This document shows, in pieces, positions 62,374 to 64,000 of a stretch of DNA of 64,000 bases. The stretch comes from an uncultured Succinivibrionaceae bacterium (GTDB lineage: Bacteria; Pseudomonadota; Gammaproteobacteria; Enterobacterales; Succinivibrionaceae), in NCBI GenBank assembly GCA_944393045.1, contig CALXYT010000007.1:1-64000 (forward strand). Direction: 5' to 3'. Under the pieces are notes generated by a model that saw only the letters and a list, made by a program, of their open reading frames with translations, did no database searches and was not told where the DNA came from. Both the position numbers and the translations under genes were made by a program. Position 1 is the first letter of the stretch. Every line of letters begins with the position of its first letter.

Positions 62374-63177
62374 ATGACAGCAAGTTTTAAGGTTCTTTTT
62401 TTTGATTCTGGGATGGGTGGGCTTTCAGTATACCGTGAGGTAATGAATGTAAGCGCTCATTATATTTCTCCTATTTACTTATTTGATAACGCCTTTTGTC
62501 CTTTTGGCAATAAACCAGATGAGTTTGTGTGTGAACGCGTAACTAATCTAATGAAGTTTGTCGCAGAAACTTTATCCCCTGATTTAATTGTTATTGCTTG
62601 TAATACTGCAAGTACTGTTGCCTTAGAGGCTGTACGCAAAGCTATTAAGATACCAGTAGTTGGAGTAGTACCTGCAATAAAACCTGCCGCTAAATTAACG
62701 CTAAATAAAACTATTGCCTTACTTGCAACCCCTGCCACCATTGGTCGAGAATATACTAAAAAACTAATTGAGGATTTTGCGCAAGGGGTAGATGTGTTAA
62801 AGATTGGCTCAACTGAGCTTGTAGAACTTGCAGAACAAAAAATAAGAGGGGAAAGTATTGATAGGCAAGTGGTAGTAAATGTGGTAAAACCATGGCTTGA
62901 ATTAAGTAAAAAGCCTGATGTAATCGTACTTGGTTGTACTCATTTTCCACTTATTAGAGAAGAGATTGAAGCGCTATTTCCTAATTCTTTATTAGTTGAT
63001 TCAGGAGCTGCCATTGCAAGAAGAGTTAAAACGCTCTTAGCTAATATGACCTCAAATAAAGAAGAGCATCAGATGCCTATTTGTTATTGCACCAAGCTCT
63101 CAGAAGTACCAGTAGCACTAATTTCTGCGTTAAAAAATCGTGGGTTTAGTGATGTCATAGAATTAACAAAAGCCTAA
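62374..63177 (+). CDS. murI: Glutamate racemase MurI
   Basis: This 267-residue racemase makes D-glutamate for peptidoglycan. It has FFDSGMGGLSVYREV at the start, with the conserved aspartate and serine. The catalytic cysteines are in IACNTAST near residue 75 and LGCTHFPL near residue 188. The length is close to other MurI proteins. It follows btuB by 67 bases, as in E. coli, and may be cotranscribed. Confidence 0.94.
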   Translation: MTASFKVLFFDSGMGGLSVYREVMNVSAHYISPIYLFDNAFCPFGNKPDEFVCERVTNLMKFVAETLSPDLIVIACNTASTVALEAVRKAIKIPVVGVVPAIKPAAKLTLNKTIALLATPATIGREYTKKLIEDFAQGVDVLKIGSTELVELAEQKIRGESIDRQVVVNVVKPWLELSKKPDVIVLGCTHFPLIREEIEALFPNSLLVDSGAAIARRVKTLLANMTSNKEEHQMPICYCTKLSEVPVALISALKNRGFSDVIELTKA

Positions 63178-63206
63178 TGCCTAATTAGGCATCGGCCTTT
63201 TGTTAA
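63163..63206. terminator. Terminator at the murI end
   Basis: TTAACAAAAG (63163-63172) pairs with CTTTTGTTAA (63197-63206). Between them ATGCCTAATTAGGCAT is itself a palindrome. The stem includes the murI stop and could serve both converging genes. Confidence 0.7.
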
Positions 63207-63223: not shown

Positions 63224-64000
63224 CTATTCTTTTATAGTTTCAGGTTCATTATTAGCTAATGCTTCCTCGTTTTCAGCTCGTTCATTAGCTATTTTTACCA
63301 CGATTTCTCTCCCTCCAAGTTCTGAGCCATTAAGAGTCTTGATAGCCTTAAGACCAGCATCTTTGGAGATTTTAATAAAAGCTACCCCTTTATGTAACCT
63401 TGAATTTGGGTTTCGAAGTAAATGAATAAAATAAATCTTTCCCCCAAAAGGAGCCATAGTATTTCTTAATTTATTAGCATTAAAACGGTAAGGAATATTT
63501 CCAACATAAAGAGTAACTGTATCTTCAAGTTCTTCAGTAGAATCATGAACCTCCAGAGGAGCGTTACTACCTGTTTTACTTTTTAAAGTATGCATGTTAT
63601 CAGATAAGTTGTCTTTTTTAGGTTCGACTTTAAGAGTGTTGTGAGAAGCACCTTTTGTAGCTTCTTTAATATTAGCAACTTTAGCACTTCTTGCTTTAGT
63701 AGGTGGGTTTTCGGAGATGGCCTGATTAACTTTTTCAGAAAGCTTGCGTTTTTGTTCCTGCAAAGCAAAACCGGCATCCGGATTAATATCAGGTCGAGCA
63801 AGTTCTTTAGTGGTAACTACTTTTCCAGAAAGGAAAAATGGTAGAGGTGAAACTATCCCAACAAAAATTATATAAATAGTAGTGAAAATTTTTAAGGTTA
63901 AGGGTTCAAAGAAAGTTGAAGACTTTAAGATTACTGCATAAAGAAGTGCTAAAAAGACTGTAATGCATACAGAGATAAGATAATTAAATTTATAAGAAGG
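63224..64000 (-). CDS. Membrane-anchored RRM RNA-binding protein, 5' end cut by the window
   Basis: The frame is open from 63224 to the window edge, at least 258 residues. The N-terminal part visible has two hydrophobic segments (YLISVCITVFLALLYAVIL and IFTTIYIIFVGIVSPLPFF). A Lys-rich linker of about 80 residues follows, then a single RRM domain. RNP2 is LYVGNIPY and RNP1 is KGVAFIKI. The tail is acidic. A TTG near 63763 is not the start, since the codons before it are open and encode the membrane part. It should hold RNA at the inner membrane; the RNA is unknown. Confidence 0.8.
   Translation of the reverse strand, partial: PSYKFNYLISVCITVFLALLYAVILKSSTFFEPLTLKIFTTIYIIFVGIVSPLPFFLSGKVVTTKELARPDINPDAGFALQEQKRKLSEKVNQAISENPPTKARSAKVANIKEATKGASHNTLKVEPKKDNLSDNMHTLKSKTGSNAPLEVHDSTEELEDTVTLYVGNIPYRFNANKLRNTMAPFGGKIYFIHLLRNPNSRLHKGVAFIKISKDAGLKAIKTLNGSELGGREIVVKIANERAENEEALANNEPETIKE

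Follow-up and report, generated by a model that had tools for sequence, protein, structure and literature searches.

Does the open frame at the edge of this stretch of DNA encode an RNA-binding protein held at the membrane, and is such a protein peculiar to one genome? The stretch (the window) comprises bases 1–64,000 of contig C7, from a draft genome of 2.33 Mb in 96 contigs, and the ORF listing showed a minus-strand frame open from 64000 down to a stop at 63224. A sequence-only reading had followed this frame past a misleading TTG into two hydrophobic segments, and had joined a membrane anchor, a charged linker and an RRM in one protein. The contig extends to 64,334, 334 bases past the window. 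When the sequence was followed past 64000, an ATG was found upstream of the helices, occupying the first three bases beyond the window (contig 64003–64001). It is directly preceded by tatAGGAtttcgt, and an AGGA motif resembling a ribosome site lies 5′ of it (upstream sequence tatAGGAtttcgtATG). No ATG, GTG or TTG occurs farther upstream in the same frame, and this ATG is the sole start codon ahead of the hydrophobic segments. The product of the gene, here termed the 2TM-RRM gene, is 259 aa long.

A soluble RRM protein might instead be made from an internal start, either TTG 63763, which yields a frame of 179 aa within the window, or ATG 63597. We regard this as scarcely credible and rejected it. 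The TTG falls after the helices and is not favoured by the relatives, in which the helices are conserved and a start codon stands at the equivalent place, and the ATG with its AGGA motif is the earliest start available. The window's genome was checked for a frameshift and for a convincing start codon beyond the helices, and showed neither. The frame, the hydrophobic segments, the RRM and the relatives thus bear out the reading of anchor, charged linker and RRM as one continuous gene. The features are listed in Table 1.

Table 1. Features of the 2TM-RRM gene and its convergent neighbour, in window coordinates
Feature	Position	Strand	Basis
2TM-RRM gene, codons 2–259 and stop	63224..64000	-	ATG at contig 64003–64001, just outside the window
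First hydrophobic helix, residues 8–26	63926..63982	-	Kyte–Doolittle; model helix 3–28
Second hydrophobic helix, residues 39–57	63833..63889	-	Kyte–Doolittle; model helices 34–51, 54–58
Charged, largely disordered linker (about 100 residues), residues 61–161	63521..63823	-	AlphaFold2 model
RRM domain, residues 162–238	63290..63520	-	Pfam RRM_1; model pLDDT blocks 93–97; Foldseek match to solved RRMs
RNP2 LYVGNI, residues 165–170	63494..63511	-	Sequence and alignment with relatives
RNP1 KGVAFIKI, residues 205–212; third position V, not aromatic	63368..63391	-	Sequence and alignment with relatives
Glutamate racemase murI, convergent neighbour	62374..63177	+	NCBIfam TIGR00067, 216.8 bits against a cut-off of 146.65
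Terminator-like hairpin between the convergent stops, overlapping the murI 3′ end	63172..63193	-	L002 3173–3194; 2 found against 0.7 expected, weak

The two hydrophobic segments have mean Kyte–Doolittle values of 2.63 and 2.04 over 19 residues. When the protein was shuffled 2000 times, 54 shuffles gave at least two segments with a mean of at least 1.6. Composition alone therefore yields them rarely, yet not never; stronger evidence for helices comes from their conservation in relatives. An AlphaFold2 model built on a 24-row alignment predicted helices 3–28 and 34–51 with pLDDT blocks of 87–89 over most of their length. The linker was predicted to contain one helix (residues 75–98), and residues 108–155 had pLDDT below 50. 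With a pTM of 0.41 for the whole model, how the parts are placed relative to one another is not predicted. Among 24 proteins examined for charge pattern, the loop was free of K/R in 18, at least one K/R stood before helix 1 in 21, and at least one followed helix 2 in 21. Loops that are mainly uncharged, with positive flanks, fit a protein with both ends in the cytoplasm, which would place the RRM there; the pattern is consistent with an N-in/C-in topology for the anchored proteins. The window protein has one K/R before the helices, two in the loop and three after, a weak charge bias.

The C-terminal domain matched Pfam RRM_1 (PF00076) with 32.5 bits against a cut-off of 20.7, over positions 1–69 of the 70 in the domain. 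The model has the predicted order beta-alpha-beta-beta-alpha-beta, with strands at 162–168, 190–197, 204–213 and 235–238 and helices at 176–186 and 214–224. RRMs were top-ranked when this model was compared with the PDB by Foldseek (for example RBM39 RRM2, rmsd 1.2 Å). A sequence search likewise returned RRM proteins, the first being a poly(A)-binding protein (7.5e-15), with no single stretch passing alone. The RRM consensus has aromatic residues at RNP2-2, RNP1-3 and RNP1-5, and RNP1-3 is normally F or Y. Two of these three usual RNA-contacting positions are kept in the window protein (Y166 and F209); RNP1-3 is V207, where most of the aligned relatives have F. In a 15-row order-level alignment the RNP2 Y and the second RNP1 F were invariant, and the first RNP1 F was nearly so. 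The domain had been called canonical, a description that is only partly right in view of the third position of RNP1.

The protein matched 15 of 41 genomes, the window's own included, and seven order-level members read as short proteins that combine a hydrophobic N-terminus with an RRM. RRM_1 matches were found in 148 of the 247 genomes of the order, and the 15-row alignment matched 148 of 247 at E ≤ 1e-10. Among the matches listed, those of 124 of the 247 genomes included the anchor; this number counts HMM matches that begin at model position 12 or before in genomes checked to be distinct, not hydrophobic segments measured genome by genome, and the window's own family lies outside it, its three matching genomes not being among the matches listed. 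At class level 220 of 369 genomes were matched. Outside the order, the matches listed included 16 genomes with a match starting at or before position 12. Thirteen of their loci had a frame encoding an RRM and two hydrophobic segments; of the remainder, L200 had one segment, L197 gave no frame by motif and G583 had no locus. A motif search detected no murI in the loci examined for these outside-order genomes.

Among named genomes, the best 80 of 575 confirmed matches included Vibrio, Photobacterium, Aeromonas, Pseudoalteromonas and Colwellia, together with Moritella, Psychromonas, Agarivorans, Oceanimonas and others. Within these best 80 of 575, which are conditional on retrieval with a 2TM-RRM alignment, 77 loci had at least two hydrophobic segments ahead of RNP2, and murI was convergent within 600 bases in 63. 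The presence of aromatic RNP residues in 80 of 80 loci is not evidence, as such motifs were required or preferred by both the retrieval patterns and the regular expression. A compact homologue (L062) was modelled as helices 5–28 and 32–49 followed by an RRM, with a mean pLDDT of 85.4 and RRM blocks of 95–97. Two helices and an RRM thus recur in many relatives. The accompanying remark that RRM proteins are uncommon in bacteria finds no support in this order, given the counts above for RRM_1 and for the anchored type. An oddity of one genome was also considered, and was rejected on the anchored matches in many genomes of the order and many named ones. On these sequence comparisons the 2TM-RRM architecture is a conserved gammaproteobacterial family, of which the window protein is a diverged member. 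It is ordinary as an RRM and unusual in its anchor and its place.

The gene order in the window is trmA (-), btuB (+), murI (+) and the 2TM-RRM gene (-); TrmA passes its NCBIfam cut-off, and the BtuB-like protein falls below its own (373.5 bits against 599.7). To compare neighbourhoods, 40 regions (L062–L101) were selected by hand from genome listings, in most cases because the frame reached about 150 aa. Seven of these were set aside, five with only a soluble RRM or no motif match (L081, L097, L098, L099, L101) and two without an RRM (L092, L093), leaving 33 anchored regions. murI was convergent and adjacent in 27 of the 33, another gene intervened in L088, and murI was absent from five, namely four f11 loci with lepA and L084 with trmA. 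A rule that the gene always lies beside murI was not adopted in view of these five. On the opposite side there were 16S rRNA motifs in 13 regions, a contig end in 15, masked sequence in one (L076) and lepA in four. In Psychromonas, four of the five murI-less loci and four fetched f11 regions were divergent from lepA, which encodes elongation factor 4 (L066, L067, L085, L100, L125, L128, L134 and L142); in L066 the next gene after lepA is that of signal peptidase I. A fifth Psychromonas locus, L152, had no lepA motif within about 1.1 kb upstream. The murI-less loci L146 and L171 (Litorilituus, Thalassomonas) had 16S at the locus edge. In these comparisons the anchored gene usually converges on murI and, on its other side, diverges from an rRNA operon or, in Psychromonas, from lepA.

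The window's own assembly yielded no assembled 16S rRNA when searched. Exact copies of its contig's last 46–77 bases are present at three further contig ends, of which one follows gmhB; the repeated end is contig 64258–64334 (L002 4259–4335). In E. coli, murI and gmhB each precede rRNA operons. The repeated ends are probably promoters of unassembled rRNA operons, such exact repeats being expected where an assembler fails to pass rRNA promoters.

Among known families, the closest in plan is NF058537, 'RNA-binding regulator' (the Rbp family of bacterial and cyanobacterial single-RRM proteins), which has the single RRM in common with the window protein. The window protein scored 46.3 bits against it and order homologues 97.0, 95.3 and 83.9, all below the cut-off of 100. 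Known members of NF058537 are, we take it, short and soluble; the window protein differs from the Rbp proteins by its two N-terminal membrane helices. The accessible part of one paper implicates the RRM-family proteins Synechocystis Rbp3 and Anabaena RbpG in placing membrane-protein mRNAs at the membrane (PMC11500504). They resemble the window protein in domain family and in a proposed membrane role, theirs being at thylakoids; they have a longer C-terminal extension, and that part of the text mentions no membrane helices (PMC11500504). AB-Elavl of Acinetobacter baumannii, an RRM protein that binds AU-rich RNA, is likewise a gammaproteobacterial single RRM, with homologues that include Shewanella (PMC9313427, as far as its text was available). 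It differs from the predicted membrane proteins of the anchored family in that the recombinant protein came from the soluble fraction, and the word 'transmembrane' is absent from the main text as available (PMC9313427). Bacteroides RbpB, an RRM-1 protein from another phylum, is a global RNA binder by CLIP-seq, and the available portion of that paper mentions no membrane anchor (PMC11697453). Searches of an open-access library, a scope outside which most subscription papers and all bioRxiv preprints fall, listed no description of a membrane-anchored RRM protein in these bacteria. The anchored family appears to be widespread and so far without published study. Database annotations presumably list its members as RRM or RNA-binding proteins.

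What might such a protein do? We give an even chance to its being an inner-membrane protein with a cytoplasmic RRM that binds single-stranded RNA and holds or regulates RNAs at the membrane surface. The two N-terminal transmembrane helices would anchor it in the inner membrane, with both ends cytoplasmic, and the flexible linker would carry the RRM. A single RRM binds short single-stranded RNA with modest affinity. Since tethering such a domain would raise the local RNA concentration at the membrane, holding or regulating RNA there would be the best-supported function. The bound RNAs would most likely be mRNAs that encode membrane or exported proteins, possibly with ribosomes still attached, and once captured they would be kept or regulated at the membrane surface. 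The position of the gene next to loci of translation, whether an rRNA operon or lepA, favours this explanation and lends some weight to a putative service to membrane-protein synthesis. The neighbourhood may, however, reflect inherited gene order and not function, and against the explanation stand the weak charge bias of the window protein, its lost RNP1 aromatic residue, the absence of the gene from most genomes of its family and the two relatives there (G007, G018) whose anchor has no recognisable RRM. A broader proposal is possible but doubtful: a widely conserved gammaproteobacterial inner-membrane RNA receptor, its gene divergent to an rRNA operon or, when relocated, to lepA, which would recruit transcripts or ribosomes and would have decayed in the window's family. 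If true, the tethered RRM would be a dedicated membrane recruiter of transcripts or translating ribosomes, one small protein that links an RNA-binding domain with the membrane and that occurs in bacteria as tractable as Vibrio and Aeromonas. How mRNAs of bacteria come to the membrane, whether ahead of translation or while it proceeds, is to our knowledge largely open outside cyanobacteria.

The same neighbours could point to the ribosome: the protein would bind ribosomes or precursors of rRNA at the membrane, and the divergent position relative to an rRNA operon or lepA would couple expression of the gene to growth rate. The tally of upstream sequences in the 33 anchored regions and the elongation factor 4 and signal peptidase I genes of L066 agree with this, but the argument is one of gene order, and promoter-like sites around the window gene were no commoner than in shuffles (five found against 4.5 expected). 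We hold it to be unlikely. Some eukaryotic RRMs act as protein–protein docking domains, and the substitution in RNP1 would suit an RRM that tethers a cytoplasmic machine, such as an RNA-decay complex, without binding RNA. The invariant or nearly invariant aromatic residues of the order-level alignment argue against docking, which we consider very unlikely.

RNA holding at the membrane could also have lapsed in the window's lineage alone, so that the RRM no longer usefully binds RNA, the gene is decaying and at most the membrane part is selected. We rate this as unlikely for the window protein, whose frame is intact over 259 codons and whose RRM keeps two aromatic positions and is modelled with high confidence. 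It has lost one RNP1 aromatic residue, however, and its RRM_1 score compares with 78.8, 68.5, 67.8, 57.3, 42.6 and 29.7 bits in six relatives. The window's family resembles Succinivibrionaceae in gene content. Across the family, RRM_1 matches occurred in 11 of 56 genomes, nine of them above the cut-off, and an alignment of five anchored proteins matched 12 of 56. One genome (G051) has an anchored protein whose C-terminus gives no RRM_1 match. In two others, G007 and G018, the anchor lies next to murI and is joined to no Pfam domain and no recognisable RRM; the RRM is therefore dispensable there. In G005 the frame is broken between anchor and RRM by three in-frame TAA codons within an A-rich stretch (L004 1851–1897, contig C3), which may reflect indel errors, a pseudogene, slippage or an assembly error. 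MurI was found in 44 of the 56 genomes, and one of 30 murI loci examined lacked murI by motif. In many of the loci that lack the anchored gene, no more than a few hundred bases separate murI from a contig end, as though the gene were just absent from the interval that leads to the rRNA operon. By these comparisons the 2TM-RRM gene appears patchy and decaying in the window's family.

Two loci beside murI (L016 1294–1875 and L017 1162–1731) encode a two-helix anchor and a shared C-terminal TPEELAVIRQKNRVKVI-like stretch, with no recognisable RRM. In G009 an open frame of 410 codons follows the RRM gene and lies between it and murI (L011 183–1139, 1264–2493).
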